Part shown: piece after piece, positions 3,268 to 54,330 of the stretch
Numbering within the stretch: the stretch's first letter is position 1
How the letters are laid out: each line of letters starts with the position of its first letter
DNA from: Chloropicon primus
Taxonomy: Eukaryota > Chlorophyta > Chloropicophyceae > Chloropicales > Chloropicaceae
Direction of reading: 5' to 3'
Assembly (NCBI GenBank): GCA_023205875.1
Contig: CP060769.1
Location: 310,001-374,000, forward strand
Length of the DNA stretch: 64,000 nucleotides
Program-made: the position numbers and the translations under genes
Notes under the pieces: generated by a model
The model's input: only the letters and a program-made list of their open reading frames with translations
What the model was told of the DNA's origin: nothing
The model's database searches: none

Positions 3268-3856
3268 CTCTCGTCGCCAAATTCCTCGCTGATTGCGGTC
3301 CACTCCCTCACTTCCCTCGCTAGGAATCAATCTCCTTCACAAGGCGTCTCCTCGAGTCAATCCTTTGCCAATGCCGTCAACCAAGGTACTGATGGAAAGA
3401 TCGCGAGACCCAATATCGCGTGATACCCTTGTCACACGCTTCCTCGGTCTCTCTCGTCGCCAAATTCCTCGCTGATTGCGGTCCACTCCCTCACTTCCCT
3501 CGCTAGGAATCAATCTCCTTCACAAGGCGTCTCCTCGAGTCAATCCTTTGCCAATGCCGTCAACCAAGGTACCGATGGAAAGCTCGCGAGACCCAATATC
3601 GCGTGATACCCTTGTCACACGCTTCCTCGGTCTCTCTCGTCGCCAAATTCCTCGCTGATTGCGGTCCACTCCCTCACTTCCCTCGCTAGGAATCAATCTC
3701 CTTCACAAGGCGTCTCCTCGAGTCAATCCTTTGCCAATGCCGTCAACCAAGGTACCGATGGAAAGCTCGCGAGACCCAATATCGCGTGATACCCTTGTCA
3801 CACGCTTCCTCGGTCTCTCTCGTCGCCAAATTCCTCGCTGAATGCGGTCCACTCCT
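3268..3856. repeat. 183-bp tandem array, three full copies plus a partial
   Basis: Units begin at 3268, 3451, 3634 and (partial) 3817, exactly 183 bp apart and differing at only a few bases, so the array is young. Each unit starts CTCTCGTCGCCAAATTCCTC and contains one copy of the shared motif (3392, 3575 and 3758). The array begins about 100 bp upstream of the decarboxylase start. No coding function is inferred; the in-frame 61-codon reading in each unit simply follows from 183 being divisible by 3. Confidence 0.95.
3392..3411 (-). promoter_or_regulatory. Shared 5'-flank motif, decarboxylase copy (repeated at 3575 and 3758)
   Basis: Read on the minus strand this is close to the consensus ACGTCTCGCGATCTTTCGAT, followed by a GTACCTTGGT block that also occurs at the PCF11 copy. 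It lies about 230 bp 5' of the decarboxylase ATG, and two further copies come with the array. Function is unknown. Confidence 0.55.
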
Positions 3857-4413
3857 CCCCCTCCAGGACGCCCTTGAGCTCCTCCTTCCTCCTCTCTCTG
3901 CAACATTTCCACCGGACGTTTCCATACGGAAATATGCTATATTTCCATTTTAGGGTTAGGCGGTCCTCTCCAGTTTCCAAGAGACCACGGACTATCAAGG
4001 GTGGAAAGAGGTGAGTTTGAAGGCGAGTGATGTGCGAGCAGGGGGTGTGAGGGAAAGAAAGGTGGAATCTTGCGGCAGACGACTTCTTCCTCTTTCCAAT
4101 GAACCGTCTCTTGAAAGAAATGGTTGAGTTTGAGGGTGCTTGAGGACTGACACAAGTTTGGTTTCGCTCCAAGGTTTGCTTGTGGCTAGACAAGGTCGAG
4201 GGCTTGGGTGCTACGGTGTGGGTGAGAGGGCAGGGAGAAGGGTGCTGGTCACTGGCCTGGATAACCTTATCACATCCAACAACGCAGACAAGGGAAAGGG
4301 GTGGACGAAGAGTCACCAGCATATTAACTGTTGATTGATTGATTGATTGATTGATTGTGTCTCTCTGTGTGCGTGCGTGTCAAAGAGAGTTTCCTTGAGC
4401 GGGGTTGGTCACG
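3857..4413. other. Spacer between array and V-ATPase gene: palindrome, telo-box, GATT repeat
   Basis: Not coding by inspection. It holds the palindrome-like TTTCCATACGGAAA at 3919-3932, a TTTAGGGTTAGG telomere-like box at 3951-3962 and a (GATT)n run at 4331-4357 just before the V-ATPase leader. Confidence 0.7.
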
Positions 4414-6438
4414 ATGGAGAGGCAAGAGAGAGAGTCCGAGCTCGGACTCGTGAAGAAAGTCTCGGGACCTGTGGTTGTCGCTGAGAGAATGTTCGGTGCT
4501 GCCATGTACGAGCTTGTTCGTGTGGGTTCAGACAAACTTATTGGTGAAATTATCCGTCTCGAGGGAGATACTGCTACGATACAGGTATGTTGTCGAGGAA
4601 GCCACGGAGTTGAAAGGTTTCACTGCCAGGTTTTCGATGTCAGAAAGCTAATTGGTTTTCTTTTGCCTTTCCTTTCCTTTCCTTTCCCCGCTCCCGTTCG
4701 TCGTCATCGGTCGTAGGTGTACGAGGAGACTGCTGGGTTGACCGTGGGGGATCCCGTGCTGAGGACTGGCGCGCCGCTGTCCGTGGAGCTCGGTCCAGGC
4801 CTCCTCGGAAACATCTTCGATGGTATTCAGAGGCCTCTGAAGGACATTGCGAGGCAGTCGGGCGATGTCTTCATCCCAAGGGGCGTAGCGGTCACCGCGC
4901 TGGACACGGTGAAGCAGTGGGAGTTCAACCCAACCGTCCAAGTTGGTGACAGAGTGACTGGTGGAGACATTTATGGCACGGTCCCAGAGAACACCCTGCT
5001 CGATCACAAGCTCATGCTTGCTCCTGGAGCAATGGGAAACGTCACGTACGTCGCGGAGAGGGGCAACTACACGGTGGAGGACGAGGTCATCGAAGTGGAG
5101 TTCAACGGCAAGAGGACCAAGTACAGCATGAAGCAGCTGTGGCCAGTGAGAACGCCAAGGCCTGTGGCCAAGAAGTACTTGGCGAACACGCCGCTGTTGA
5201 CCGGGCAGAGGGTTCTTGATGTTCTCTTCCCAGGCGTCTTGGGTGGTACCTGCGCGATCCCTGGTGCTTTCGGCTGCGGAAAGACGGTCATCTCCCAAGC
5301 CTTGAGTAAGTACAGTAACGCCAATGGTATCATTTACGTAGGATGCGGAGAGAGAGGCAACGAGATGGCCGAAGTCCTGGCAGAGTTCCCAACGCTGACG
5401 ATGACGACGCCCGAGGGCGTGGAGGAGTCCATCATGAAGCGAACGACGCTGGTGGCGAACACCAGTAACATGCCTGTAGCGGCTAGGGAGGCGTCCATCT
5501 ATACGGGGATCACGCTCGCGGAGTACTTCAGGGACATGGGCTACCACTTTGCTATGATGGGAGACTCCACTTCGAGGTGGGCAGAGGCTCTGAGAGAGAT
5601 ATCCGGTCGACTAGCGGAGATGCCTGCAGATAGTGGTTACCCTGCATATCTTGCCGCAAGGCTTGCTAGCTTTTACGAGAGGGCGGGGAGAGTCGAGTGC
5701 CTGGGGTCTCGGCCGCAGAGAGAGGGATCCGTCACGATTGTGGGAGCGGTCTCACCCCCCGGTGGTGACTTCAGTGACCCGGTGACGGCGGCCACCCTTG
5801 GTATCGTCCAAGTGTTCTGGGGCTTGGACAAGAAGCTCGCACAGAGGAAGCATTTCCCTTCGGTTAACTGGCTGATCTCTTATTCCAAGTACGACAAGGC
5901 GCTGGAGCCCTTTTACGACAACTTCGAGTACTGGCACTCGAAGGAGGGGTCGGGCTCCGCCGGGAGTATCGACAGAGGAGAGTCCCTGACGGAGTTGAGG
6001 AGGGAGGCGAGGAAGATCTTGCAGAAGGAAGACGAGCTGAACGAGATCGTCCAGCTTGTTGGAAAGGACTCTCTGGCTGAGGCCGATAAGGTGTGCCTGG
6101 AGACGGCGAGAATCATCAAGGACGATTTCCTCGCTCAGAACGCCTTCACGCCGTACGACAAGACTTGCCCCCTGTACAAGTCCGCGGGAATGCTGAGGAA
6201 CATCATCGCGTTCTACAACCTCGCGACTGCTGCGGTGGAGAGGACCACCGCCTCGAGGGGCGTCACGGGCGGGGACAAGATCACCTTCAACCAGATCAAG
6301 GCTCAGCTCGGCGACCTGATGTACAAGGTCAGTTCCCAAAAGTTCCAAGACCCGGCGGACGGGGAGGCCACGCTGAGAAAGTACTTCAGTGACCTGAACG
6401 AGGAGATCTCCGAGGCTTTTGCTCAGCTCACAGAGTAG
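4414..6438 (+). CDS. VMA1: V-type proton ATPase catalytic subunit A, two exons
   Basis: Exons 4414-4584 and 4717-6438 are joined across a 132-bp GTATGT...TAG intron in phase 0, giving [19 protein letters not shown]; the product is 630 residues, close to the usual length. The subunit hydrolyses ATP in the V1 head of the vacuolar proton pump. Walker A is GAFGCGKT (about residues 240-247) and the catalytic segment [13 protein letters not shown] follows. The A-subunit-specific insert between the N-terminal barrel and the nucleotide-binding domain is present ([14 protein letters not shown] to WPVRTPRPV). The ATG at 4414 is the first in frame. It converges with the ARF1 gene. No oddity was seen. 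Confidence 0.97.
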
Positions 6439-6599
6439 GCAGCAGGACCAGGCTCGACTTTGTAACATTCTTCAAACAAATGAAAAACCTTTTGACATAG
6501 TATTTAATATACGCGATGCACCGTGGTGTTGGACCATACCTAATCACACTCCTCACACTTCATCACACTCAGCTAAAAAGCCAGGGGGCCGAGGACCCC

Positions 6600-8250
<1,651 letters not shown>

Positions 8251-8330
8251 GAAGAGGGACGTGTTTGTGGAGGAAGGGGACGAGGGCGGGGGCGAGGAAA
8301 GGGAGACCAAGTCACACGGATCGATAGTAG

Positions 8331-8350
8331 AGATCGAAATCTTTCGATCG
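8331..8350 (+). promoter_or_regulatory. Shared 5'-flank motif, RAD51C array copies
   Basis: AGATCGAAATCTTTCGATCG matches the core CTTTCGAT with the downstream ATACCTCGGTGG block. The motif recurs at about 8501, 8671, 8841, 9010 and 9180 in step with the 170-bp array, and reads in the RAD51C direction. Confidence 0.5.
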
Positions 8351-9350
8351 ATACCTCGGTGGAAGATTTTGACCACGGATCAGACCAACTGAGGAGGCAT
8401 CGAGGCACGGAGGCACAGAGTAAGAGGGACGTGTTTGTGGAGGAAGGGGACGAGGGCGGGGGCGAGGAAAGGGAGACCAAGTCACACGGATCGATAGTAG
8501 AGATCGAGATCTTTCGATCGATACCTCGGTGGAAGATTTTGACCACGGATCAGACCAACTGAGGAGGCATCGAGGCACGGAGGCACAGAGGAAGAGGGAC
8601 GTGTTTGTGGAGGAAGGGGACGAGGGCGGTGGCGAGGAAAGGGAGACCAAGTCACACGGATCGATAGTAGAGATCGAAATCTTTCGATCGATACCTCGGT
8701 GGAAGATTTTGACCACGGATCAGACCAACTGAGGAGGCATCGAGGCACGGAGGCACAGAGGAAGAGGGACGTGTTTGTGGAGGAAGGGGACGAGGGCGGT
8801 GGCGAGGAAAGGGAGACCAAGTCACACGGATCGATAGTAGAGATCGAGATCTTTCGATCGATACCTCGGTGGAAGATTTGACCACGGATCAGACCAACTG
8901 AGGAGGCATCGAGGCACGGAGGCACAGAGGAAGAGGGACGTGTTTGTGGAGGAAGGGGACGAGGGCGGTGGCGAGGAAAGGGAGACCAAGTCACACGGAT
9001 CGATAGTAGAGATCGAGATCTTTCGATCGATACCTCGGTGGAAGATTTTGACCACGGATCAGACCAACTGAGGAGGCATCGAGGCACGGAGGCACAGAGG
9101 AAGAGGGACGTGTTTGTGGAGGAAGGGGACGAGGGCGGGGGCGAGGAAAGGGAGACCAAGTCACACGGATCGATAGTAGAGATTGAGATCTTTCGATCGA
9201 TACCTCGGTGGAAGATTTCGACCAGAGGAGACCACAGATCAAGGCATCGAGGCATCGAGGCACCGAGGACAGAGGAAGAGGGTCGTCGTGTTTGTGGAGG
9301 AAGGGGGCGAGGACGGTGGCGAGGGAGTCCGACGGATCGATAGTAGATAG

Positions 9351-9384
9351 ATCGGGAGCTTTCGATCGACGCCTCGGTGGAACG
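9351..9384 (+). promoter_or_regulatory. Shared 5'-flank motif, copy nearest RAD51C
   Basis: GGGAGCTTTCGATCGACGCC followed by TCGGTGGAACG aligns with the array copies and with the PCF11 copy. It lies about 330 bp 5' of the RAD51C ATG, in the same sense. Confidence 0.5.
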
Positions 9385-9693
9385 TTCGGATCGTTCGGAT
9401 CAGGCAAAGCATTTGCTGGTTCAATCCGGAGAGAGAGAGAGAGAGACAGAGGGGCCTTGTTTGGTGACTGACCAGGCGGACGACTCCGGTGGGGAAGGAC
9501 TTTACCTTTGATCCGTGCCACGGCTTGAAGATCTTTCGAGCCTCATTGCCCCGATGAGGGTGCGGCGTCACCATCGTCACCGTCACATCACTCCTCAGTA
9601 GGAGTTTGTTTGCTCCTTCCTTCCAGAGCAGCTAACGCGCACAATCCACCCGCAGCACACATACGCCGCATCATACAGACAACCACCACCACC

Positions 9694-11688: not shown

Positions 11689-12752
11689 CGTCCCTGTCCA
11701 ACAAGCAGCCGAGTGACTCGGCCCCGTACAATCCCCTGGCGATGCGTCCTCGTCCGGTCGTCGGACAAAAACAAAACCCGTGTGAGATCTGAAAGCAAAG
11801 CATCAGGAAGCGAAACACGGACAAAGTCAGTTCAGCGTCATTCTTCTCGATTCGAGGGTTCACGCAAGGCTAAAGCGATGAAGAATCCATCCGTGACCCT
11901 GATCCTCGTCTCGACGTTCCGCCTCTCCGCTACCATCGTCCCACAATCCTCCCAACGAACTCAACGAGGAAGGCCGTCACACCCCGGCACCCTTATCCAC
12001 AATCTGTTTCGACTCCCCGAGCGTCATTCTCGACAAGAGAGGCGTCATTCGAAAGAGAACGAGACGTATCTTCCTGCTTCCGCGATCTCGCCCCCTCCCT
12101 CCGCCCCCCCCCCCTCTCTTTCTCCCAAACTCACCTGTTCACTTCTCCATGAAAACCAATAGAAACATGCCAAACGTTTTTTCGTGAGTCAAATCCTCAA
12201 ATTTGGTTCAAATCTCACGAGAAAGACGTCAAACGAAAGATCATCTCACGAAGCTTCCATCGATCGACGCGTCATCTCCTCTCGTCCCCAAACACGTCAC
12301 CCACGAGCGCGCAAACCTCCTTACCTCGACCTCCTCTCCCTCTCTTGAGAGAACGCGAAAAAAAATATCTACCTTTCAAATACACGAGTATAGCGTCAAA
12401 TATCAAAGTAAGTAATATTTCCATATGGAAAGGTTGAAGCAGCCGCCAAAAAAAAAATTTTCGAGAGAAAAAACAAACCAGAACGAACGTGTTCTTCTTT
12501 TGTTGTTGGTTTGAGTTTGTTTGTTTTTTCCCACGTGTGTGGTCGGTTTGAGTCGAGAGAGGGTCGTACCATCGTAATCTTCATCTCGTTCTCTTTCATT
12601 TGACCCTGCGGTCGACCTCCGTGGAGCCGGAATTGGGATTCAACAGTCGCAAGCATCCTCTAGCGGCTTTTGAGCCTTGGGTGGGATTGGGAACAGAACA
12701 GAGTGGTGTCTTGGTGTTTTGTGTTTCGTTTTTTTTTTGAGGAAGTTCAAGG
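11689..12752. other. Divergent spacer between the LysM and eIF3f genes
   Basis: No supported gene. It contains a motif copy at 12047-12072 facing the LysM gene, a weaker motif-like ACGAAGCTTCCATCGATCGA at about 12250 facing eIF3f, and the perfect palindrome TTTCCATATGGAAA at 12418-12431. Confidence 0.7.
12047..12072 (-). promoter_or_regulatory. Shared 5'-flank motif, LysM gene copy
   Basis: On the minus strand this reads GGAAGATACGTCTCG, then a TCTCTTTCGAAT block. The first 15 bases are identical to the same stretch at the NTMT1 copy (53869-53896). It lies about 360 bp 5' of the LysM start. Confidence 0.5.
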
Positions 12753-15817: not shown

Positions 15818-16701
15818 AGAAGGAGTGGTGCGTGGTGGTGGCGATTTCCCTGCTGGACCATATACGCAACGCGCGACCCCCAGAAAACAAAATAGTATTT
15901 AAGGCACACGTCAAGGCTGTACCATATCCTACATCGGGCTTTTTGATATCCGCACGAGACGAAGAAGTGACTTTCAAGAGCGGCGTCGGGAAAAATACTA
16001 CAAAAGCCCGCTCGCTACAAATCGCAAAGGGGGTCAAAGGTGGCCAAAGGTCCAGTCATCCATCAAACCTCTATCACGCCTTCCACCCTCCTGTCCCCTT
16101 GTCCCACCATTGCATTGCTCTCTTGCTCTCTTCCTCTTCCCTGTCCCCTCTAACGCCTCTGGAGCCCCGGTACCGCCTCATGCATGCAATGCATCGCGGC
16201 CACCATCCTCTTCTCTTACTGCAACAAAAGGGTCAAAGGGGGTCAAAGGTGGCCAAAGATCCAGTCATCCATCAAACCTCTATCACGCCTTCCACCCTCC
16301 TGTCCCCTTGTCCCACCATTGCATTGCTCTCTTGCTCTCTTCCTCTTCCATGTCCCTCTAACGCCTGAGAGCCGTCCGTTGCAGCCGCTCGCTTTAATCC
16401 ACCAAATCCTTATCATCACTTTTTCTGACGGCAGACAAGCGTTGGGGCAAACAGAAGGTCAGTGAACGAGTTGTGGAGGGACGAGAACGAAAGGCGGAGG
16501 GGAGAGGGAGCGGACCAGTCGAAGCACCGCCTCGCACTCTTTCCGTCGACCCCTCGCACGACGACGCTGGCGTCTGGACGGAGGAGGACAAGGACGGAAG
16601 AGTGGAGCGTTTTTGTGCGAGGACGAGGCGGTGTTGGTGATGGAGGGCGAGACGGAGGGCGGAAGAGAGTTGTTGATCGAACGTGTGGGGTGTCGTCGGA
16701 A
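15818..16701. repeat. Spacer holding a 209-bp direct duplication
   Basis: The stretch 16031-16157 (GGTGGCCAAAGGTCCAGTCA and following) recurs at 16240-16363, 209 bp downstream, with only a few differences. The rest of the spacer shows no gene. It lies between CCZ1 and enolase. Confidence 0.85.
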
Positions 16702-16725
16702 CCGTCTCCGTCTCAGCTTTCGAAA
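16702..16725 (+). promoter_or_regulatory. Shared 5'-flank motif, enolase copy
   Basis: CCGTCTCCGTCTCAGCTTTC followed by GAAAG resembles the consensus CGTCTC...CTTTCGA. It lies about 170-190 bp 5' of the enolase ATG in the same sense, close to a likely leader splice acceptor. Confidence 0.4.
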
Positions 16726-16800
16726 GAGTTGCCTCACGAAAGGATTGGCGTAGGGGTGCGGAGGGGAGAGACTGAAACGCTGGTTTGTTTTTTCGTTTTC

Positions 16801-18364: not shown

Positions 18365-19188
18365 GAAGAAGAAGAGGAAAAACAAAAACAAAAACAAAAA
18401 CAAAACAAGATTTTTTTACAGCACCTCTTTTCGTTACGTTGACGCCCGTGTTTCCCTTTGCTTGCTTCCATCCCTCGATGATCCTCATCGATCCCAAATC
18501 GATGAGAAAGCGAGAAGAGAGAGAGAAACTTTAGAGATCAACAGATCTATGGACCCCTTCGTATATCGTTGTCGTGCCTTGGTGTGCCTCCCCCAAGGTC
18601 TCCTCCTCCCTCCTGATCCTGATCCCCAAAGGTCTCCTCTCCTCCAGTCCCAGTCTCCTCATCACATCTCCACGGGAGGATTCCAGCACAGAAGAGATTG
18701 GTGGCGGCCGACAGACCTGAACATCGTGGCTGGCGTCTTGTGGGGAGAGCGAGGACAAGCGCAAGGTTTCGTGAACGAGTGGAAGAGTTTCAAGGAGCGA
18801 GAAGAGGTTGAGACGAAAGTACAGGTCGAGACCTTTCGATAGACGTGTCACTTGACGGTATTGGCGTCCGGAGGAGAGCAAGCGGCGAAGAAACGGCAGA
18901 AAACCAGCAGGGGGCAACCTCCGTGGAGGGCAACAAGGAGGGAGAGGGCGGCCAGAGGTCGAAGCGAGGGGGCGAGGCGAAGCGGTCGAGTCGCAGACGT
19001 TGAATCGGTTGCGTTGGGAGGACCTCGTGTCTCGAGCGGAGTCCCTGTTTCGCGCCGGAATCGTCGTGGCATCGGTTTTTTTTTTCAACTTGGGATCCCG
19101 AGTGGTGGTCGAAAAAAAGTCTGCGGTGCGAGTTTGATTGAGAGGGCGGTGATCGAGGTTGAGGGCGTTTGTCGAGGGAGAGAGAGAG
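18365..19188. other. Spacer before the acidic-protein gene
   Basis: No conserved coding sequence is recognised. It contains the motif copy at 18824-18840 and a GA-rich leader that runs straight into the ATG at 19189. Confidence 0.6.
18824..18840 (+). promoter_or_regulatory. Shared 5'-flank motif, copy before the acidic protein
   Basis: GGTCGAGACCTTTCGAT, followed by AGACGTG, fits the core with an altered upstream half. It is about 350 bp 5' of the ATG at 19189 in the same sense. Confidence 0.4.
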
Positions 19189-33364: not shown

Positions 33365-34223
33365 CACACAAAACGAATCCAACCCAAGGAGGAGGAGAAC
33401 GAAAGGAAGGAAACCTTTGTGCTCACGACGACGATGAAGTCGCGACCTCTTGCTTCTCGATCCCCGTCGCCTTCGATCGCGATCGATCCGAGCTATCGAA
33501 CCCTCTGTTCTCTCTGTTCTCTCTGTGCTCTCTGTGGCTCTGATGGATCGATTGATGTCGATGTCGATGCCTTCTCTCCCTCGTTCTGACGATCGTGTGG
33601 CGCCAACTTGGTCAAGATCGGTACCAATCGAAAGCTCGCGACACGACGCACCCCTTGGTCGCGCCCTCCTCCTCCCTCTCCGCTCCGATCGCGCCGCGTC
33701 CGCTCGTTCTCTCCCTCCTCTGTGCTCTGTGCTCCGATCGATCGCGATCGCGCCAAAACCTAAACCTAAAGGGGCGAAGCGATCACAACGCGGAACGAGT
33801 GGGCGATCAAAGAGGTGAGCAGACGATCGAACGAGGACGAAGACGAAGACGACGGCGACGGCGACGGAGGGAAGGCGGAGGCTTCGCTTCGCGATCGCTT
33901 CGCTTCGTGCCGACGATCGCTTTGGCTTTCTTTCCGCACGAACGGAGCCAAAACGAAGAGAGAGAGAATGTGATCTACGCTCGAGTGCTTGGCCATGCCA
34001 TGGAAGGCGGGTTTGCGGAGGAGAGGCAGGGAAGGTCCTCGCGCGTGGGCGTGGTCCTTGACGCTGTGGTGCGATCGCGGTAACCGAGGCGTGGCGTTAC
34101 GTTCTGACTCTCTCTCTCTCCTGGGCGTTTTTGATCTTCTTTGTTGTTTTCTTTTTCATTTAGGTCAGCGTGAGAGAGAGAGAGAAAAGTAGCGAAGAGC
34201 GAGAGAGAGAGAGAGAGAGAAGG
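33365..34223. other. Divergent spacer before UAP56, with GA leader and probable leader splice site
   Basis: No protein gene is supported. It holds the motif copy at 33627-33646, CCTAAACCTAAAGG telo-box-like words near 33758, many GATCGCGATCGCG words, a pyrimidine tract ending CATTTAG at 34163 (likely leader splice acceptor), and (GA)n tracts at 34171-34222 running into the ATG. Confidence 0.6.
33627..33646 (-). promoter_or_regulatory. Shared 5'-flank motif, small membrane protein copy
   Basis: On the minus strand it reads TCGTGTCGCGAGCTTTCGAT followed by TGGTACC. That is nearly the same as the PCF11 copy (CGTCTCGCGGGCTTTCGATT then GGTACC). It is about 265 bp 5' of the ATG at 33364. Confidence 0.55.
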
Positions 34224-38694: not shown

Positions 38695-38720
38695 GCTGTA
38701 GAATCTTTCGCGCGACGGCT

Positions 38721-38750
38721 CTTTCGAAAGAGCAAGAGAAGACGCTTCCG
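38721..38750 (-). promoter_or_regulatory. Shared 5'-flank motif, ankyrin-gene copy
   Basis: The minus strand reads CGGAAGCGTCTTCTCTTGCT then CTTTCGAAAG. It is nearly identical to the distal copy before the F-box-like gene (45567-45600) and ends about 26 bp 5' of the ATG. Confidence 0.55.
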
Positions 38751-43762: not shown

Positions 43763-44214
43763 CTTGAAGTTGGATCTTACCAAAGACAAAGACAAAAAAA
43801 TAAAAATAAAAACAATGCAAGATGCTCCTCCTCCTGCTGCTTGCTGATGGCTGCGGCGGCGACGGCGTTGGCGTCGAGCAAGAGCAAGAGCAAGAGGAAG
43901 AGAGAGAGAGACAAAGAGCGAAGTTTTCTGCGCGTTTCCTTGCCTTCTCGTCGTGTGGTGTTGGGTTGGCTGGTGGTCGCGCGGTGCTGACCTCTGGCGT
44001 GCTCTGGTGCTCGCTGCACTGGCGGCCAGAAGGAGAATGAAAGAGGAAAGGCGGATCGGCGGTTATGGAGAGGAGGAGGTGGTGAGGAGGTGGTGAGGGA
44101 GGAGGAGGAGGAGGTGAATGGCAAGGGTCTTGGTTAAAAATTAGCATAGAGAAGATCGACGACTCACTGATGCGGGTGCGAGTCAGCATCCGCCGTTTGT
44201 ATGACCGCCCAGTT
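43763..44214. other. Spacer upstream of RPA190
   Basis: No gene seen. The A-rich leader near 43790-43815 is followed by GC-rich sequence and a GAGGAGG-rich stretch (about 44065-44115). Confidence 0.5.
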
Positions 44215-44430
44215 AGTGTCCTCAAGTCCAGTTCCAAGTCCAAGGCGGGTTCTGGCTTCGAACCCACTGCAGAACGTGAAGGTGACCTTCTTCAGCTGCC
44301 ACAGCAAAACAAGTGTTCGCGTTCCAAGGACAAGGCGGATCCTGGCTTCGAGCCCACTTGAGAACATCAAGGTGACCTCCTTCACAGCTGCCTCAAAACG
44401 AGTCCCCTCGTCCCAATCACAAGGCGTCAA
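44215..44430 (-). pseudogene. Fragment of an ankyrin-like (PPCPW) repeat gene
   Basis: On the minus strand, pieces of about two and a half repeats of the gene at 37198-38694 are legible: PCDWDEGTRFEAAVKE in one frame, then HLDVLKWARSQDPPCPWN and HLHVLQWVRSQNPPW in another. The frame changes by one base between AAVKE and HLDVLKW, and a stop follows the last block. There is no start codon. It is a decayed duplicate of the host family. Confidence 0.75.
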
Positions 44431-44491: not shown

Positions 44492-45322
44492 CTAGCGTCG
44501 TAAGCTTGGTGGTATTTCTGACGCGCGGCCGCTCTCCTCGTAGTGCTTCACCGTGTCTCTTTTGGCATCAGCGGATATGTCATCCATGTGTGCGCGATAC
44601 TCGTGTGGTGGTAGCCACCCGGCGAAGGCGCGATGCTCTTCTCTGAGGTACCGCAGACGTTTCTTGTAAAACTTGGTGCTGTGAAGCCACCGCATTTCGA
44701 GCATGGTGATGGCAATGGAATCAGGGTCGCCATGGCCGTCGCGGATCCATCCGTTGCACAGCCGACTATCGGCGCGTGGCTGCAGAGTCGAATCCAGCCG
44801 GTGCATCGCGGCGCAAAGCACCTGGCGACGTTCGGCCTGCTCAACCTCCGATGCTTTGCGTTTCCGTGCCTGGGTGGCACGGATAGCGCCCGAGCGCTGT
44901 ACGCGCTTGCGCCTTGCGCTCTTCAAGCCGTCCGTCATGCCGTACTTTGCGCGAGCAACGTCCATCACGTCCGTCGCGTCGTACAGATGCGCCACACGGA
45001 TCCGATCGAGCTCGACTGCCTCGTAGCTGAGCGACCGCAGGTCTTGTGCGCTGAGCAGCAGTATTTTGTTCGCGTTGCCTTTTGTGAGCTTGTCGCCGCG
45101 ACGGCCCATGTGCTCGGCGGTTTGGATCCAACACGCAAGCGACTCATTGACTGTATCGCGCAACGTAGTCGATACCGCGGCCACCCGCCCCAGATCCTCA
45201 AATGACCGCAGACCCTGCAATGCTACAATGCGGAGAATGGTATCGCCGCTCATGGTGGGCCCCTCCAACGCGTGCTTGGCCTCCGTTCTCCGCCTCTTGC
45301 TCGCTCCCCTCGTCACCGCCAT
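44492..45322 (-). CDS. F-box-like protein of unknown target
   Basis: The product is 276 residues with no intron; ATG at 45322 (MAVTRGASKRRRTE). After a basic N-terminus comes an F-box-like block (GDTILRIVALQGLRSFEDLGRV...CW, about 25-65), which would bind SKP1. The remainder is helical and charged, with a Trp-containing stretch (EMRWLHSTKFYKKRLRYLRE) followed by HRAFAGWLPPHEYRAHMDD. I recognise no substrate domain. Base composition is more AT/mixed than the flanking housekeeping genes. Its 5' flank holds two copies of the shared motif 184 bp apart, one nearly identical to that of the ankyrin gene, which suggests a co-regulated or co-duplicated pair. Confidence 0.6.
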   Translation of the reverse strand: MAVTRGASKRRRTEAKHALEGPTMSGDTILRIVALQGLRSFEDLGRVAAVSTTLRDTVNESLACWIQTAEHMGRRGDKLTKGNANKILLLSAQDLRSLSYEAVELDRIRVAHLYDATDVMDVARAKYGMTDGLKSARRKRVQRSGAIRATQARKRKASEVEQAERRQVLCAAMHRLDSTLQPRADSRLCNGWIRDGHGDPDSIAITMLEMRWLHSTKFYKKRLRYLREEHRAFAGWLPPHEYRAHMDDISADAKRDTVKHYEESGRASEIPPSLRR

Positions 45323-45384
45323 CTTCACGTCCGGGTGTCCTCAGATGATCCCCACCACCGGGTCGTTCTCTTCGAGCGAGAGGG

Positions 45385-45415
45385 CTCGTTCGAACGAGCG
45401 AGAGACGCTGGTTCC
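45385..45415 (-). promoter_or_regulatory. Shared 5'-flank motif, F-box-like gene proximal copy
   Basis: Minus strand AGCGTCTCTCGCTCGTTCGA matches the consensus. It sits about 65-90 bp 5' of the ATG at 45322. Confidence 0.5.
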
Positions 45416-45566
45416 GTTCTCGTATCACTCCTCCGGCACAAACTCCCGCCCTCGTCGCCGCCTCCCTTCCTCGGTGATCTCCGCCTCGAGGGTCCTTTCT
45501 GCCTCTCTTTTTCGTGTTTCGTGCTCCTCAGATCCTCACCACGGGGTCGTTTCTTTCGCGCGAGAG

Positions 45567-45600
45567 CTCGTTCGAATGAGCAAGAGAAGAAGCTTCCGCT
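45567..45600 (-). promoter_or_regulatory. Shared 5'-flank motif, F-box-like gene distal copy
   Basis: Minus strand CGGAAGCTTCTTCTCTTGCT then CATTCGAACGAG. It matches the ankyrin-gene copy at 28 of the first 32 bases by eye. Confidence 0.5.
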
Positions 45601-45743: not shown

Positions 45744-45860
45744 AGTTCCCGCCGGGATTCGGACCCGGGTCTTCAGATCTCTCACCGAACGTAAGCTGGA
45801 CTTTTTACATTGATTTCCCTCGTTCAAAGTCTAATGTGCTAACCACTGCACCACGGGAAC
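45744..45860 (-). tRNA. tRNA-Gln (UUG) with a 45-nt intron
   Basis: Exon 1 is 45860-45824 and exon 2 is 45778-45744. The acceptor stem GTTCCCG pairs with CGGGAAC. The D stem is GTGC/GCAC, and the anticodon stem TTAGA pairs with TCTGA (one G-U). The loop is CTTTGAA with anticodon TTG at 45827-45825. The variable loop is four nucleotides, usual for eukaryotic tRNA-Gln. The T arm is CCGGG/CCCGG with loop TCCGAAT. The intron (45823-45779) interrupts at the canonical site 3' of position 37. A T-run on the minus strand at 45740-45734 is the Pol III terminator. Confidence 0.93.
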
Positions 45861-47338: not shown

Positions 47339-48713
47339 ACTTTCAATGTTGGGAATGAATAATGTACAAGTGAACGCACACACGCGCACACGCAATGCAC
47401 TACGATGTAACACACTTTGTATTGTTAGGAGGACTCCTCTTCATCCTCATCCCCAATCCTCCTCCTCCTCGTGTCGGCTCTCCCCCGAAAGGCCAATCGG
47501 TCCTAAAACCATCCTCGTCGATCCTAAACATCCCATCCTGTACCGATCCAAAAGGCACCCTAGTCGCACCTTACTCTGCGCTTTATCCCAAGGGCCTCGC
47601 AATCGCCATCGCTACCCCTTCACCAACGCGCACAATCCCCATCGCTCCTCTCTCACCGTATCTCTCTCACAGCACCGAAGACAAACACAGAACACAGAGG
47701 GCGACGGAATTGTGCAGGTTAAGCTCTCATCAGTCCATTCCATTCCATTCCTCCTGAACGTCTCTCCTCCTCCTCCTCCTTCTCCACCTGTAATCGCCAT
47801 CGCCATCGCATCCATCACATCACATCAGATCACATCACATCACCTTATCCTCCCCTCCTCTCCTCTCTCACAGCAGACACACGCAACAGATACAGAGGGA
47901 CGGTCCGTACCTGTCCTTCCTTGTGCAGGTTACGCTCTCATCAGTCCACTCCACTCCTCTCCCATCCTCTCCCATCCCATCCCATTCCTCCTGCAATCGC
48001 ACCACCTCTCCTCCTCCTCCACCCCCTGGCCATCGCCATCGCCATCGCCATCGCCATCGCTCCTCCTCTCATTCATCTCTCACACCAGAAGACAAACAAA
48101 CAACAGACAAAAGACACAGAGGCTCACTCTCATCAGTCCACTCCCATCCCATCCCATCCCATTCCTCCTGCAATCGCACCACCTCTCCTCCTCCTCCACC
48201 CCCTGGCCATCGCCATCGCCATCGCCATCGCTCCTCCTCTCATTCATCTCTCACAGCAGAAGACAAACAAACAACAGACAAAAGACACAGAGGCTCACTC
48301 TCATCAGTCCACTCCCATCCCATCCCATTCCATTCCTCCTGCAATCGCACGACCTCTCCTCCTCCTCCACCCCCTGGCCTCGCCCCCCTCGCTCGGCTTC
48401 CTTCTCCTCTCATTATTCGGCGGCGTGGGCTCGCGCGCTTGAGAGGCAGAGAGAGAGAGGCAGGCCAGGATGATCCTCGGACGAACGACGACGACGACGA
48501 CGAGCAAGGGGAGGAGGACGAACCTCGGCGGACGACGAGAACACGACACGTGGTGACCCCACCCCCGCCTTCCGCTCGTCTCCTTCCCATTCGAAAAAGG
48601 TATTCCAGTTCCATTCCATTCCTTGGTTCCAAATCCAAACCTCCTCCTGGGTTCGCCCATCCCATCGCGTTCGCAGTATCTCGCCATCGCGTTGGGATCA
48701 TCCACGGTAGAGG
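47339..48713. repeat. Tandem array upstream of exportin-5 (units about 171-211 bp)
   Basis: The word TCAGTCCA recurs at 47730, 47941, 48133 and 48304, giving spacings of 211, 192 and 171 bp. Each unit continues with TCCCATCCCATTCCTCCTGC, an ATCGCC microsatellite and a GACAAACAAACAACAGACAA block. The last two full units are nearly identical. Long frames through it only translate the repeat. The XPO5 leader follows from about 48430. Confidence 0.88.
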
Positions 48714-51700
48714 ATGATGATGATGGGAGGAGGCATGGACCAGCACCAAGAGGTTCTGTTGGCGGTTGAGGTTGTGTCTGATCCTTTGCAGCATCCAGAG
48801 GTGAGGCTGAGAGCGCAGAATGTGATCGACCAGGTCAAGGGGATTGCCTCCGGTTCGTCGGAAGCAACGACGACGACGACGACAGGGCTTGGGATGCCTG
48901 CGGATGATGCCTCCTCCTTGGCGCAAAGTTTGCTCGGTCTGTGCGCTTGCTTGCTCTCGTCGCAGCCGCCGTCCAAAGCTTATCTCGAGAAGAAGCTGTT
49001 CGGAATCAGTTTGCTGCAGCAGCTCGTGACCCAACAGTGGACGGACCTGTCGGAGGAACTGAAGCAGAAGACGACCATGTTCATCGTGGAGTGCTGCAGG
49101 TCCCTGTGCGTCAGTCCGGAGGCGCCGACGTACGCTGTCAAGTCCAAGCTGGCGGTTCTCTTCGCGGATATGGCGAGGTACATGTCAACGGACCCGTCCG
49201 TGATAACTCAGCAGACTCAAACTCAGGGGGAGTTTGACCCCTCAAAGTCTTCGTCGCCGCTTGTCAGCAACAACGCGATCAAGACGAACGTGCTGCCGGA
49301 GATCACGACTTGGCCGGGGACCAGGGGGGTGGAGCTGGCTTGCCTTGTGCTGAGGTGGCTGCCGGAGGGGACCACGGGCACCGTCGTCGAGGCCCTTCCG
49401 GCCAAGAGGAAGAGGCTCCTCCTCAAGGTGCTTCACGCGGCCTTGCCCGAGATGATGGGCTTTGCCTACCAGGCCCTGGAGAAGTACTACCAGGCCCTGT
49501 GCCAGGGCGAGAGCCAGAAGGACTGCAGCCAGGCTCAGGCGGAGGAGTACAAGCACGTGGTCGAGGCGACGCTGGCCATGGCTCTGGCCTACGCGGAGTG
49601 GGCGCCGATCACCCTCCTTCACCAGTCGGGGATTGTCAACGCCTGCGGGATCCTGATGCGCGACAAGCGCTTCAGGGACGCGGCTTGCGACGTCCTGAGG
49701 CAGCAGTCCGCTTGTAAATTAAAACCAATCTTTTCGGAGGACTCCAGAACTCAGGTCGTGCAGCAAGTCAGCAGCGCGGCCACGGTGGAGACCGACATTG
49801 AGAATGCAAAGATGGCCGCCAGGGCCATGTTCGAGGCCTTTTCCGGGCCTTGCGGGGAGTGCCTGGGCCAAGAGTACCTGTCTCTTGGCCTGGAAAACAT
49901 AGAATTCGGGACGCTCTTGTGCGAAACGATGGTCATCTGGGGGAAGAACCACGTCAAGCTGCTCGAAGGGAGCGAGCACTTGAACTTGTATCTGAGGATG
50001 GTCATAGCGTTCATGCAGCACCCGAACATAAACATTGCGCTCATCACGGTCGACTTTTGGATTTTTCTCGTCAGAGAATCCTTGGTGGGAGACACAAGCG
50101 AGGCTGCGGCGAAGAGGCATCTCCTCCGGATTCCCGAGGGATTCCTGAGCGCGTTGCTGGACGTCGTCGTGTCCAGGCTTCAGAAGCCGGTGCTGGAGTC
50201 GCTCGACGACTTCCCAGCCGAGTATTACGACAGCGCCAAGGACTTTCAAGAAAAGTCGGCTCAAATGAGGCAGAGGCTTGTGGGAATCGCGAGGAACATT
50301 GCCAAAAGTGCTCCCGAGGAAGTCTTCCGCGTGTGTTTGGGCAACCTAGAAAAAATATTTGTACAAATACAGCAGAATCCTGACCAGAAAGGGATAGACA
50401 TCGCGCTGGAGGCTGCCACACACTTTTTGTTCGTTGCGACGGGGTCGGCAAACTCCTCTGTGGTGGGCCAGTCCCCCTCGCTAGAAGCTTTGCTTGCAAA
50501 GCTTTTGAACTTTCCCCTGGCTGCAATGGCAAGGCACGCTCCGATCATCATGCAGTTTGTGAAATGCCTGGAGGCCATCGGGGGGCACAGCCACAGAGTC
50601 GTGCCGGTAGTTCAGTGTCTCTTCTCTATCTTGAGGTCGGACGAGGGAGTGGGCAGTGTTTCCGAGGACAAGCATGCGTCAAGGCAGCAGGCCGCCACGA
50701 CGGTTCTGGTCTTGGCTTCAAGAGAAGAAGCCGGCCCTGCTCTTTTCCAGCACATCACAGGTCTGATGGAGCAAACCCAAGAGATGTGGGGGAAGCGCTG
50801 CATCCGTGCTGGAGAGCGCAATGCCTTGTATGAGGCAATCTTGGTAGTCTCGTCCAGCGTCGGTTACGAGCAGCAGCAAAAGACCTTGGAGTGGATCTGG
50901 AGCGAAACGTGCCAGCACTTCAACGCTCCAGGGTGGCAAGAGTCGACCTTGTCAGACGGCTTGTCCCTGCTCAGGAGCGTCGGGATCAAGCAGTGCGCTT
51001 GCGTTGCGAACGATCCTTCCTTTGACTCGGTCAAAGCAGGCAAGGAGCGGCTGGAGATCTATCACGGGATCCAGCTGATAGAGAGGCTAGCGAGGAGATT
51101 GCTCAAGATAAAGAAGACAAAGGGCGGCGAGGCTCTGCTTGCCATTGTGCCGCACTTCAAGTGGACGATTCCAGTTATGGTCAGGCTTTTGCGCTGCCTC
51201 CATTTTTTGGCGTGCCCTGAAGGAAGGAAGCTCTTGGGACCTTGCGAGAGTGTCCTCGAGCTCGGTGAAGTGGAGAGGGCCTTCATACTTGGCATGACGC
51301 CCCATGGCGTGAGTCCAGCGATGTTTGTCTCCGTCACCGCAGGAGGCGCGTACGTCCCAACCTCGTCTTCGAGCATTGGGATGGAGAATGACTCGTTGGA
51401 ATCCCTCAGAGTCTTTGTGAGGGGCATGAGGGACTCGGCGTACCAGTTTCTGGGGACTGTGAGCGAGGTCAAGGTGGAAGATAACAATGTGGCGGCCAGC
51501 ATGGGCTTCAAATCCTTCTTCGATACCATGGGATCGGCTCTGAACGAATTTTATGCCCTGATCATGGAAAACATCGAGTCTCAGGACGAGAAGACCACCA
51601 GGATGCTCATCAGGGGCTTTGTGTGCCCCATGGTGAAGAGCTGCCCCCAGCACTGCTGGAGGCAGTGGCTCGGAACCATTCTGCCGCCCTTCCTCCACCA

Positions 51701-52562
51701 CATGCACACGAGGCTCACGGCCAACTGGCATTCATTCCTGACGGGTCAGAGAATGACAATGAACAGAGGCGCGACTGTACAACAGCAACAATTAGCAAGC
51801 GCTTCTGGGATCTCCACCGAGCATGGCGAAGAGATGCTGAAGGAGACTAGCTTGAGGGAGCTGACCAGAGAGCATCTCTCCTTGATTTTGGTGATCGCCA
51901 CTGGGGACGAAATGGGACACACTTACTTCCACAACAAGAAGAAGGGGAAGTTGGCAAGCCCTCCATCGGCTACAATCTTTCAGTGGCTTGTGGCAGAGTG
52001 CACCCAGGCGGCTTCGTCCTTGCTCGCCACCACCGTGGCCTCCTTGACTTGGCCTGACACGGATACGGGCATGAAAGCGATCAGGGCCTGCAGGATTGCC
52101 CTCGGGCTCACCGAGAAGTCAGCCGGCTCGCTAGGCTCGCTGCAATCCTTCATCGCGAAGGAAATGTTCACCGCCTGCATGTCTTGTCTGACTTTGCCAA
52201 GCCACGCGGACTTCCAGGCCGAGATCCTTCTTGTGCTTCGGGACATCATCACGAAACACTCTCTTTTGGTCTCCCCCGTGCTTCTGTCCCTGCCAAACAT
52301 TGACCAGGGCGTCCTCGACTCTTTCCACCAGGCAATGGCGATGAAGAACTCGGAGAAGGATCAGAGAAATTTGGTGAGGAAGCTCCTTCTGCGCTCGGGC
52401 GGGGCGGAGCTGAAGGCATTGGCAAAACAGCACAGCCCGGGAAGTAAAATCCCCCAGCTGCAGTCAAGCGACTTTGGCTCCAGGTCTAACAAGAACCAAG
52501 CCAGGCCCCTCCTTGACACGGTGTCCACGAGTGAGCAGTCGCCCCTGCAGAACCTTTTTTAG
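48714..52562 (+). CDS. XPO5: Exportin-5 / HASTY karyopherin
   Basis: The product is 1,282 residues from a single exon, close to animal XPO5 (about 1,200). XPO5/HASTY is a RanGTP-dependent exporter of pre-miRNA and other structured RNAs, including tRNA. The N-terminal HEAT region carries an XPO5-like block (LFGISLLQQLVTQQWTDLSE...KQKTTMFIVECCRSL), followed by an exportin-1-like domain. Further in, EYLSLGLENIEFGTLLCETM and NINIALITVDFWIFL resemble the HASTY mid-region. The C-terminal HEAT repeats (QEKSAQMRQRLVGIARNIAK, EKDQRNLVRKLLLRSGG) complete it. The ATG at 48714 opens a Met/Gly stretch. Other importin-beta exporters (XPO-T, XPO1) fit less well. AATAAA is at 52654. Confidence 0.82.
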   Translation: MMMMGGGMDQHQEVLLAVEVVSDPLQHPEVRLRAQNVIDQVKGIASGSSEATTTTTTGLGMPADDASSLAQSLLGLCACLLSSQPPSKAYLEKKLFGISLLQQLVTQQWTDLSEELKQKTTMFIVECCRSLCVSPEAPTYAVKSKLAVLFADMARYMSTDPSVITQQTQTQGEFDPSKSSSPLVSNNAIKTNVLPEITTWPGTRGVELACLVLRWLPEGTTGTVVEALPAKRKRLLLKVLHAALPEMMGFAYQALEKYYQALCQGESQKDCSQAQAEEYKHVVEATLAMALAYAEWAPITLLHQSGIVNACGILMRDKRFRDAACDVLRQQSACKLKPIFSEDSRTQVVQQVSSAATVETDIENAKMAARAMFEAFSGPCGECLGQEYLSLGLENIEFGTLLCETMVIWGKNHVKLLEGSEHLNLYLRMVIAFMQHPNINIALITVDFWIFLVRESLVGDTSEAAAKRHLLRIPEGFLSALLDVVVSRLQKPVLESLDDFPAEYYDSAKDFQEKSAQMRQRLVGIARNIAKSAPEEVFRVCLGNLEKIFVQIQQNPDQKGIDIALEAATHFLFVATGSANSSVVGQSPSLEALLAKLLNFPLAAMARHAPIIMQFVKCLEAIGGHSHRVVPVVQCLFSILRSDEGVGSVSEDKHASRQQAATTVLVLASREEAGPALFQHITGLMEQTQEMWGKRCIRAGERNALYEAILVVSSSVGYEQQQKTLEWIWSETCQHFNAPGWQESTLSDGLSLLRSVGIKQCACVANDPSFDSVKAGKERLEIYHGIQLIERLARRLLKIKKTKGGEALLAIVPHFKWTIPVMVRLLRCLHFLACPEGRKLLGPCESVLELGEVERAFILGMTPHGVSPAMFVSVTAGGAYVPTSSSSIGMENDSLESLRVFVRGMRDSAYQFLGTVSEVKVEDNNVAASMGFKSFFDTMGSALNEFYALIMENIESQDEKTTRMLIRGFVCPMVKSCPQHCWRQWLGTILPPFLHHMHTRLTANWHSFLTGQRMTMNRGATVQQQQLASASGISTEHGEEMLKETSLRELTREHLSLILVIATGDEMGHTYFHNKKKGKLASPPSATIFQWLVAECTQAASSLLATTVASLTWPDTDTGMKAIRACRIALGLTEKSAGSLGSLQSFIAKEMFTACMSCLTLPSHADFQAEILLVLRDIITKHSLLVSPVLLSLPNIDQGVLDSFHQAMAMKNSEKDQRNLVRKLLLRSGGAELKALAKQHSPGSKIPQLQSSDFGSRSNKNQARPLLDTVSTSEQSPLQNLF

Positions 52563-52653
52563 ATAATATTATATCAAAACAGTATTGGAATGGCAACTTC
52601 AGCTCGATGTACATCAAGCCTCTCTCTCTCTCTCTCGGGTCTCTCACTCAAAC

Positions 52654-52659
52654 AATAAA
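52654..52659 (+). terminator. Poly(A) signal AATAAA of exportin-5
   Basis: Hexamer 92 bp after the TAG, in the short convergent spacer with NTMT1 and after a (CT)n tract. Confidence 0.5.
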
Positions 52660-52692
52660 TTACAATAGTAAGATCGAAACCTCCTTTCTTCT

Positions 52693-53406: not shown

Positions 53407-53465
<59 letters not shown>

Positions 53466-53685
53466 GGAGACAGTGTCCTTACCTTTGGCTGTGCTTCAGG
53501 TCGTTTGGCGATATCGTCCCGAACCCGCCAAGGACACCATCGACACTTGCTTCGATCTTGTCCCAGTAATCAATCCCTTTCTGATACCAGCAACCCTTGT
53601 CGAAGGGAGTGGAGACCTCTTGACGCCACATGTCATCCGCGCTCTTGTACCTCTTCCCTTCCGTGTCCTGACCTTGGCTCTGCAT
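52693..53685 (-). CDS. NTMT1: Protein N-terminal alpha-methyltransferase (NTMT1/METTL11A), two exons
   Basis: Exon 1 is 53685-53483 and exon 2 is 53245-52693; the 237-bp intron contains a 54-bp GA tract and splits a Ser codon (KHSQ-S-FLLEVF). The product is 251 residues. The enzyme uses SAM to methylate the alpha-amino group of X-Pro-Lys N-termini such as RCC1 and ribosomal proteins. Diagnostic blocks are YWDKIEASVDGVLGGFGTIS (substrate-binding N-terminus), motif I DCGAGVGRIT (about 92-101), IQWCIGHLTDDD and IVVKENNARKGFVLDKEDSS (VTRSD follows). ATG 53685 is the first Met in frame. The 5' flank holds two motif copies 183 bp apart. Confidence 0.92.
53410..53463. repeat. (GA)27 microsatellite inside the NTMT1 intron
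   Basis: An uninterrupted 54-bp GA run (CT on the transcribed strand, near the donor of the minus-strand intron). Confidence 0.9.
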
Positions 53686-53844
53686 GATGCCGCCCAACAA
53701 TCGTAAGGTCTCCACGCGCACCTTCGTTGGGTCCAACTCTCTTCTCCTCTGAACCGCCAAGCCCCTCAACACCACGTAACGCAATGCTCCTCGTTTCAGG
53801 ATCTCCAACACTCGAACACGCGATTGCTATCGACCACTCCGGTC

Positions 53845-54078
53845 CTCAAACCAGTCGAGTAAACGCTCGTTCGAAAGATCGCGAGACGTATCTTCCTTCT
53901 GTGACGCGCCAGAAGTCTCTGCCCTTCGACCTCGCCGCTCACGCTCCCCTCAATGCCGTCCCCTTCCTCTCGCTCCAAAAGGCTCCAAGGATCAACTTCC
54001 CTGCACCTTTTATCGATCACTCCGAGGGCCAAACCAGTCGAGTAAACGCTCGTTCGAAAGCTCGCGAGACGTAGCTTC
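53845..54078. repeat. 183-bp direct duplication between NTMT1 and PCF11
   Basis: The block CCAGTCGAGTAAACGCTCGT then TCGAAAG.TCGCGAGACGTA occurs at 53851 and 54034, exactly 183 bp apart, with about 40 near-identical bases. The sequence between is diverged. The unit length equals that of the unrelated array at 3268. Confidence 0.85.
53869..53896 (-). promoter_or_regulatory. Shared 5'-flank motif, NTMT1 proximal copy (second copy 54052-54078)
   Basis: The minus strand reads GGAAGATACGTCTCGCGATC then TTTCGAACGA, the best match to the consensus. The second copy is 183 bp further 5'. It is about 185 bp from the NTMT1 ATG. Confidence 0.6.
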
Positions 54079-54288
54079 GAATGACACCCCTCTCTCGACC
54101 TCTGCACCCTTCGCTTTCGTCGTCTCCGCCCTCTGTTCCTCTCGCTCTCTCGCGCGCGATCGATCGTGGCGAGCGACTCTGGATCAGAGTGAGGAGAGAG
54201 GTGTCGAGCGGCGGGTGGAGCGGCGTCGATTGGCGAGGCCCTGGTCGGCGGTTGAGGGAGTGGAAGGGGAAGGCGTTCGGATCAAGCG

Positions 54289-54330
54289 AAGATACGTCTC
54301 GCGGGCTTTCGATTGGTACCTTGGTCGAAG
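54289..54330 (+). promoter_or_regulatory. Shared 5'-flank motif, PCF11 copy
   Basis: GATACGTCTCGCGGGCTTTC then GATTGGTACCTTGGTCGAAG. It aligns over about 38 bases with the decarboxylase copies and ends about 47 bp 5' of the PCF11 ATG, in the same sense. Confidence 0.6.

Follow-up and report, generated by a model that had tools for sequence, protein, structure and literature searches.

The element and its copies in the window

The window analyzed here is a stretch of 64,000 nucleotides from the green alga Chloropicon primus (contig CP060769.1, positions 310,001 to 374,000), whose genes include a pyridoxal-dependent decarboxylase, an enolase and relatives of RAD51, NTMT1, and PCF11. The 5' flanks of these and several other genes hold an oriented sequence element, recognizable by the words CTCGCG and CTTTCGA, which is the subject of this report. 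The genome of strain RCC138 is described as comprising 17,584,162 bp on 20 chromosomes, with 57.44% G+C, 8,627 protein-coding genes and 0.54 introns per gene; the same source, whose methods include RNA sequencing, gives an average nucleotide identity of 77.88% between C. primus and C. roscoffensis (PMC12301720). A first-pass annotation of the window had drawn attention to the motif in front of about ten genes, but missed what we consider the main finding, a common distance of 176–189 bp between neighboring copies on the same strand.

The 15-mer CTCGCGATCTTTCGA matches the window 20 times with up to three mismatches (3.3 expected), and with up to two mismatches it matches the whole genome 661 times, against 28 for the reversed pattern. 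The position weight matrix (PWM) proposed in the first-pass annotation was seeded with copies of at most one mismatch and iterated, with a hit threshold of more than 8 bits and reversed sequence as the control. It was scanned over 328 kb, comprising the window, twenty unbiased stretches of 10 kb each that start at base 100,001 on every chromosome, and loci picked because motif sites were present (labels L013–L046 denote sampled loci outside the window, with coordinates local to each locus). This returned 117 copies and a single reversed hit; real and background scores separate cleanly, in a nearly all-or-none manner, the 99.99th percentile of the background being −8.5. Nothing beyond the G-rich composition of the leaders (39–54% G on the sense strand in 10-bp bins from −100 to −20) speaks for an artifact of chance or composition, and the two reversed controls already refute it. 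The 42 copies in the unbiased stretches extrapolate to ~3,700 genome-wide, and a second estimate, in which the excess of genome hits (661 − 28) is divided by the pattern's recall of 7/42, gives ~3,800. Viral contigs contained no exact match to one motif pattern.

Positions within the element are counted from the C of CTCGCG, the anchor. The element extends over ~85 bp, from about −12 to +72, and carries 44.6 bits across −12 to +70. Its modules follow one another at nearly fixed internal spacing, gaps being needed to align few copies: GAA (−10), CGTCTCG, CTTTCGA (+8), GA (+17), CCCTCGCTCGAA, TTGGC (+36), a weak TGGTGAGGAT (+44) and, last, a word like CTGAAAC or ACGAAAC clustered at +60 to +69 (22 occurrences). 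With seven recent-array copies removed, 110 of the 117 were used for spacing, orientation, and word counts, and 100 of these have CTTTC at +8. The second module occurs in the variants GGTACCTTGGT and AAGAGCCCTCGCTCGAA. The core and the second block described in the first-pass annotation are both present, but the 15-bp core is only part of the longer element and GGTACCTTGGT is merely one form of its second module. The sole match in the window to Rfam at gathering score is a tRNA gene (45744–45860, minus strand); no copy of the element in the window matches an Rfam family.

All 15 coordinates listed at first pass lie within 20 bp of a PWM-scored copy, and each copy has the same strand as the named gene, according to our own gene calls and, for the LysM gene, to Pfam. 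These sites are real, but the list omitted copies at 4084 (+), 12247 (−), 12585 (+), and 16531 (+), the weaker copies 13870, 21603, and 30670, and the sub-threshold copies 62537 and 62715. Copies and arrays in the window, with arrays as detected by TRF, are as follows.

3335–3419, minus strand: element, anchor 3407, PWM 56.9; leader of the pyridoxal-dependent decarboxylase gene (ATG 3162, Pfam PF00282), member of the 183-bp array
3518–3602, minus strand: element, anchor 3590, PWM 59.9; decarboxylase array copy
3701–3785, minus strand: element, anchor 3773, PWM 59.9; decarboxylase array copy
3268–3855, minus strand: 183-bp tandem array, 3.2 copies; unit common to the mago nashi (L036) and glutathione synthase (L041) leaders
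4072–4156, plus strand: element, anchor 4084, PWM 33.9; divergent, 311 bp from 3773, in front of a gene for a V/A-type ATP synthase subunit (Pfam)
8248–9324, plus strand: 170-bp tandem array of 6.3 copies with anchors 8333, 8503, 8673, 8843, 9012, and 9182, PWM 44.5–55.0; 5' flank of the RAD51-like gene (ATG 9694, Pfam PF08423)
9339–9423, plus strand: degenerate element, anchor 9351, PWM 17.0; closest copy to the RAD51-like ATG
11991–12075, minus strand: element, anchor 12063, PWM 50.5; 5' of the LysM gene (Pfam LysM)
12175–12259, minus strand: element, anchor 12247, PWM 43.5; 184 bp upstream of 12063, donor-like CAG/GTGAGT in the spacer
12573–12657, plus strand: element, anchor 12585, PWM 35.5; 168 bp to the ATG of a JAB/MPN gene (Pfam)
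16519–16603, plus strand: element, anchor 16531, PWM 42.3; upstream copy in the enolase leader
16697–16781, plus strand: element, anchor 16709, PWM 38.2; 178 bp further downstream than 16531 and followed by branch- and acceptor-like signals; ATG 16894 of enolase (Pfam)
18813–18897, plus strand: element, anchor 18825, PWM 52.6; 364 bp to predicted ATG 19189
33570–33654, minus strand: element, anchor 33642, PWM 38.1; 278 bp to predicted ATG 33364
38666–38750, minus strand: element, anchor 38738, PWM 59.8; 44 bp to predicted ankyrin-gene ATG 38694 (Pfam Ank)
45332–45416, minus strand: element, anchor 45404, PWM 25.2; 82 bp to predicted ATG 45322
45514–45598, minus strand: element, anchor 45586, PWM 59.1; 182 bp upstream of 45404, leader common to a multi-copy gene family from 45597 downward
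53813–53897, minus strand: element, anchor 53885, PWM 65.3; NTMT1-like leader (Pfam PF05891)
53996–54080, minus strand: element, anchor 54068, PWM 64.8; 183 bp upstream of 53885, two-copy leader also at L027 (chromosome 19)
54286–54370, plus strand: element, anchor 54298, PWM 55.1; divergent, 230 bp from 54068, PCF11-like gene (predicted ATG 54377, Pfam zf_PCFS4)
62469–62817, minus strand: 178-bp tandem array with sub-threshold anchors 62715 and 62537, PWM −1.6 and −1.8; 5' of a gene with predicted ATG 62419

Spacing, orientation, and shared leader units

Same-strand copies less than 600 bp apart, recent arrays excluded, form 24 pairs, and all 24 are spaced at 176–189 bp (mean 182.5; standard deviation, SD, 3.2), which agrees numerically with the regular spacing at one nucleosome repeat expected of a nucleosome-phasing element. 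Seven of these pairs came from the unbiased stretches, four from the window and 13 from loci chosen for motif sites. Across the genome, CTTTCGA pairs counted by start-to-start distance in 31-bp bins number 237 at 165–195 bp (control 45), compared with 28 at 80–110 bp (control 7), 18 at 125–155 bp (control 8), 33 at 196–226 bp (control 21), and 39 at 348–378 bp (control 9). The first 100 listed of the 237, minus eight palindromic doubles, average 180.6 bp (SD 6.5). In 21 of the 24 sampled pairs the flanks of the two copies match no more clearly than those of random pairs (one flank could not be scored), so that the spacing has outlived the sequence. Recent tandem duplication within a locus was rejected as the source of the 182-bp distance, being evident in only three of the 24 pairs (L031, L036, and L046) and in the window arrays. 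Identity of the element averages 0.60 within pairs versus 0.49 in random pairs, which implies that many pairs are probably old duplicates, some being no more alike than chance. Single copies gave little sign of hidden degenerate partners 182 bp to either side.

Divergent copies keep a distance of their own. The closest divergent pairs are 222–256 bp apart in 15 of 19 cases, the others lying at 310, 330, 338, and 677 bp. At about this distance the genome holds 52 divergent pairs (control 8) and 17 convergent ones (control 9), several of the latter being divergent pairs re-read via the palindrome CTTTCGAAAG.

Roughly one C. primus gene in four is preceded by the element. Testable genes were defined by a predicted ATG, a coding sequence of at least 300 nt and at least 700 bp of available upstream sequence. 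A same-strand copy lies within 700 bp upstream in 17 of 64 such genes from the unbiased stretches and in 11 of 22 from the window, in agreement with the first-pass view of a gene-oriented 5'-flank element restricted to a subset of genes. For 52 of 53 genes the distance between the nearest copy and the predicted ATG is 44–450 bp, where about 25–560 bp had been given earlier; in the remaining gene it is 1,017 bp, and array copies reach 1,361 bp.

For the 117 copies, the next gene is on the same strand in 97 cases and on the opposite strand in eight, the end of the locus being reached in 12; predicted coding sequence holds one copy. The agreement of strand and gene that had been claimed for every case holds at the sites then listed, but is partly automatic in divergent regions, where either strand faces a gene. 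In such regions 42 of 51 copies lie nearer the gene pointed at (binomial p = 1.7e-6). Tandem regions contain ten co-oriented and five anti-oriented copies (p = 0.15), two of the five being the LysM copies, where a short open reading frame (ORF) misled the gene caller. Of the 110 copies, one is in a convergent region, and the remaining 43 lie at locus edges, apart from one that falls within a predicted coding segment. Opposite-strand neighbors less than 800 bp apart make up 37 divergent pairs and no convergent pair, a pattern far from the equal strand use that had been named at first pass as contrary evidence. Two convergent neighbors occur within 2 kb, each including one weak copy.

The strongest rival explanation is that the leaders contain a dispersed repeat of nucleosome-sized units, spread like SINEs, MITEs, or introners or by ectopic recombination or conversion, so that unit length alone would explain the 182 bp and the element would have no function. 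A copy number of thousands suits such a repeat, as do correlations between columns among the copies, the preference of introners for nucleosome linkers (PMC9860276) and the existence of nucleosome-sized arrays that lack the element. To judge from the alignments, whole leader units are copied, some between unrelated genes. The 183-bp decarboxylase unit (window 3232–3864) recurs at 77–85% identity before a mago nashi gene on chromosome 4 (L036:383–727) and a glutathione synthase gene on chromosome 6 (L041), and L041 504–684 aligns with window 3412–3232 over 181 bp without gaps, exactly the element-to-element unit. The two-copy NTMT1 leader recurs on chromosome 19 (L027; 76% over 238 bp) at a gene without Pfam match, and an ankyrin-type leader is common to L015, L021, and the window copies 38738 and 45404/45586, partly as a gene family. 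A flank-versus-flank BLASTN comparison of the 110 copies found a match at another locus for 30 (E ≤ 1e-5), some of it short or simple sequence. The remaining 80 had no flank match within the sample, however, and averaged over copies nothing is shared beyond about −100 and +80, with no sharp end seen. Copies are on average only 0.49 identical over 67 columns, yet their core is nearly invariant. The scarcity of copies in predicted coding sequence, the nearly all-or-none scores and the lack of close convergent pairs also count against a repeat, and the strand counts in divergent regions differ from those of an element inserted without strand bias. We consider a function-free repeat unlikely.

Several other repeats were observed. 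A 171-bp tandem array at window 47970–48384 (2.4 copies, 95% match) lies in the 5' flank of an exportin-5 gene (ORF 48714–52562; its one match with a named source organism is from Chloropicon maureeniae), and arrays of 192 and 194 bp at L013:4268–4833 and L028:6171–6642 also occupy 5' flanks. All three lack the element, and the duplication of leaders in nucleosome-sized steps may be a general trait of the C. primus genome. Tandem repeats of 447 bp cover about two thirds of L018:1–10000 (chromosome 10, 100–110 kb), and repeats with an 87-bp period, apparently ankyrin-type coding sequence, are found at window 37441–38109 and L021:7392–9999. The minus-strand gene at 44492–45597 looks chimeric: its leader and first ~20 codons (45597–45264) match 14 other places at 76–84% identity, the rest of the ORF is unshared, and ankyrin-like fragments lie at about 44200–44400. 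The similarity border at 45597 was dropped as a marker of the transcription start site (TSS) because all comparisons use the window copy and may reflect one event. About 150 bp upstream of this border is the tRNA gene mentioned above (RF00005, 117 bp, probably intron-containing).

Placement relative to promoter, leader, and introns

Sense ATG triplets are depleted upstream of the element. At −120 to −20 of the 79 outermost copies there are 27, against 75.8 expected from permuted trinucleotides (for CAT, 31 against 45.4). Upstream of the outermost copy in 53 genes the counts are 5 versus 24.0 expected at −60 to −12, 4 versus 25.8 at −110 to −60 and 31 versus 43.2 at −200 to −110, and between tandem copies 4 versus 33.6. 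Splice-donor words of the form GGTRAG[GTC] occur at −115 to −35 in 22 of 104 copies, compared with 6.6 after shuffling (maximum 15), and peak at ~−75. This combination of upstream ATG depletion and donor words suggests that the element lies in the transcribed leader, ~100–120 bp downstream of the predicted transcription start. The first-pass annotation had left the choice among promoter, TSS, and leader; of the three, the transcribed leader is favored by an ATG depletion that sets in at ~−120 and by the position of the donor words. The promoter center is likely upstream of the element, near −120: CGATCGATC-type words fall there, as does the point midway between divergent copies. The CGATCGATC-type words are a candidate promoter-center motif, and CGATCGAT is found in 15 of 78 regions (1.3 expected) at −190 to −70 upstream of outermost copies.

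The element might alternatively be a conventional core-promoter or TSS element, with transcription starting at it or just downstream and tandem copies serving as alternative promoters. In 26 of 53 genes the nearest copy lies 44–132 bp from the ATG, as would fit short 5' untranslated regions (UTRs); motif-less genes are ATG-depleted only within ~150 bp of their ATG, and the genes with the closest copies show no ATG depletion between copy and start. The depletion nevertheless extends upstream of and between copies, donor words lie upstream as well, and a separate promoter center seems to be present, so that we regard a core-promoter element as quite unlikely.

An RNA-level element of the 5' UTR, bound by protein or controlling translation and repeated along the leader, is less probable still. 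Strand-specificity and a probable location in transcribed leaders agree with such a role. Two candidate hairpin stems were rejected: their paired counts do not exceed those of column shuffles (536 vs. 541.9 and 435 vs. 444.1), and they show no covariation. Moreover, it is not obvious why an RNA element should keep a distance of 182 ± 3 bp across spacers that have diverged, and divergent pairs maintain their geometry of 222–256 bp across the promoter.

A minority of copies look, from their splice-like words, as though they lie inside a leader intron with a donor at ~−75, a branch site at ~+64, and an acceptor at ~+105. CTGAAAC-like words near +64 occur in 12 of 104 copies (1.0 after shuffling); nine copies combine branch and T-rich acceptor, six of which also have the donor (2.5 expected, Fisher p = 0.013), and some tandem spacers read ...AG/GTGAGT.... 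A more general form of this explanation, in which the element is the body of a ~180-bp 5'-UTR intron that acts by intron-mediated enhancement, was rejected for most copies and kept for this minority. None of the three signals is found in 64 of the 104 copies, so that the element also occurs without splicing signals; a looser branch-plus-acceptor test gave no excess (5/68 vs. 6/68 on the opposite strand), and for many copies the predicted ATG is 44–100 bp away, too close for an acceptor to fit in between. As a general account it is the least probable of the alternatives that survive the controls.

Nucleosome spacing and known systems

Our preferred reading, to which we assign a probability of roughly 0.45, is that the sequence is a downstream promoter element acting at the DNA level, set to the nucleosome array and situated in the transcribed leader of about a quarter of genes. 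Strand-specificity, the long fixed layout, the steady distance to the promoter center and the quantized spacing across diverged spacers argue for DNA in chromatin rather than RNA as the substrate. A sequence-specific factor or complex with a long footprint would bind the element at the place where linker DNA should follow the first nucleosome downstream of the start, and the bound element would fix the nucleosome array and keep the promoter permissive. In multi-copy genes each further copy would sit one nucleosome repeat (~182 bp) deeper. Tandem duplication in nucleosome lengths would create new units, and at times a whole unit would be copied from one gene to another, such that mutational bias supplies copies, inter-gene copying spreads some, and selection keeps element and spacing. 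Tandem growth is visible in the window in the 183- and 170-bp arrays. The positions of TSS and nucleosomes, protein binding, the mode of copying, and any effect on expression are all inferred here. The proposed location is plausible, given that Micromonas and Ostreococcus have phased linker marks in the first nucleosomes that follow the TSS (PMC12695648). A bolder version, which we hold as doubtful, is that C. primus writes its first nucleosomes into sequence, with the element marking successive linkers, interchangeable and transferable modules of ~182 bp (~240 bp across a divergent promoter), spacers that drift while selection holds element and spacing, and a dedicated long-footprint reader, so that the element would serve as a nucleosome ruler and as a modular downstream promoter code.

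Several observations weigh against the preferred reading. The agreement of 182 bp with typical nucleosome repeat lengths is a numerical match only. Copy-to-ATG distances show no convincing 182-bp phase, the Rayleigh statistic being weaker at 180 than at 270–290, and CpG in coding DNA, considered as a linker mark, shows no 182-bp period. Upstream of the element CAT is somewhat reduced as well as ATG; in the 26 genes whose copy is less than 150 bp from the ATG there is no ATG depletion from copy to start (10 vs. 9.6); and the excess is less convincing for the looser donor word [AG]GT[AG]AG (29/104 vs. 17.6 after shuffling, maximum 29). The tandem pairs are not all independent: common descent is apparent between L021 and window 45586, between L027 and window 54068, and between L036 and L041, which leaves at most 21 of the 24. 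The element-free arrays of nucleosome size in the 5' flanks at window 47970–48384, L013, and L028 imply that duplication bias contributes. The gene models are our own heuristic calls by a codon-usage dynamic programme rather than the deposited annotation. In favor of the preferred reading, the autocorrelation of AA/TT in non-coding DNA is highest at a lag of 180, partly because of the element itself. The 10-bp periodicity of WW dinucleotides upstream of the element is weak.

If the preferred reading is true, position-locked downstream control of transcription, a recent theme in vascular plants, would be extended to green algae, with an element that is far longer and strongly conserved, and C. 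primus would offer a natural system in which to separate promoter, leader, and nucleosome spacing. Sequence-dictated nucleosome phasing after the TSS and the growth and spread of leaders in nucleosome-sized modules would become testable, and in practical terms the element would serve as a marker for about one promoter in four of an alga that is ecologically important. We found no description of a Chloropicon promoter in the literature searched, although one may exist elsewhere, and the word "promoter" does not occur in the main texts of two Chloropicon genome papers.

Metazoan points of comparison are the TCTCGCGAGA element of promoters and nucleosome-phasing factors with many zinc fingers, CTCF among them. 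The C. primus element contains TCTCGCGA in 22 of 110 copies and the full palindrome TCTCGCGAGA in none; by analogy it resembles the sites of CTCF-type factors as a long oriented motif that would be flanked by phased nucleosomes. With introners it shares dispersed families, a unit of about intron size and, on the introner side, a preference for linkers (PMC9860276), some leader units being dispersed here too. Unlike introners, the element lies outside coding sequence, shows no sharp ends and in most copies lacks splice signals. The linker-phased N6-methyladenine and 5-methylcytosine of prasinophytes are likewise nucleosome-periodic over the first nucleosomes after the TSS of small green algae; there the position is given by base modification, whereas in C. 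primus it would be written in sequence (PMC12695648). Chloropicon is not mentioned in the main text of either source (PMC12695648, PMC9860276). The C. primus genome has at least one MT-A70 and one C5-methylase match in exon-wise searches, which is uninformative about their use.

In plants, the downstream GATC motif YVGATCBR acts in a position- and dose-dependent manner up to 500 bp downstream of the TSS, often in several copies and in both UTRs and introns (Voichek et al. 2024, PMC11525189). Its effect is reported for vascular plants, and the two bryophytes tested showed a weak effect or none (PMC11525189). The C. primus element would likewise lie downstream of the start and be position-dependent; it too can occur in several copies, and GATC is found at +5 to +8 in 40 of 110. 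However, no copy matches YVGATCBR at the core and only 11 of 110 match anywhere in −12 to +60; the element is an 85-bp composite with near-constant 182-bp spacing in a chlorophyte. The intron-mediated-enhancement motif TTNGATYTG acts from transcribed sequence near the TSS, independently of splicing and in a dose-dependent manner (Gallegos and Rose 2019, PMC6760150). It is absent from all 110 copies (−12 to +60), most of which have no intron signals. By sequence the C. primus element belongs to neither class, and the plant downstream GATC and intron-mediated-enhancement motifs appear to be its nearest functional analogues.

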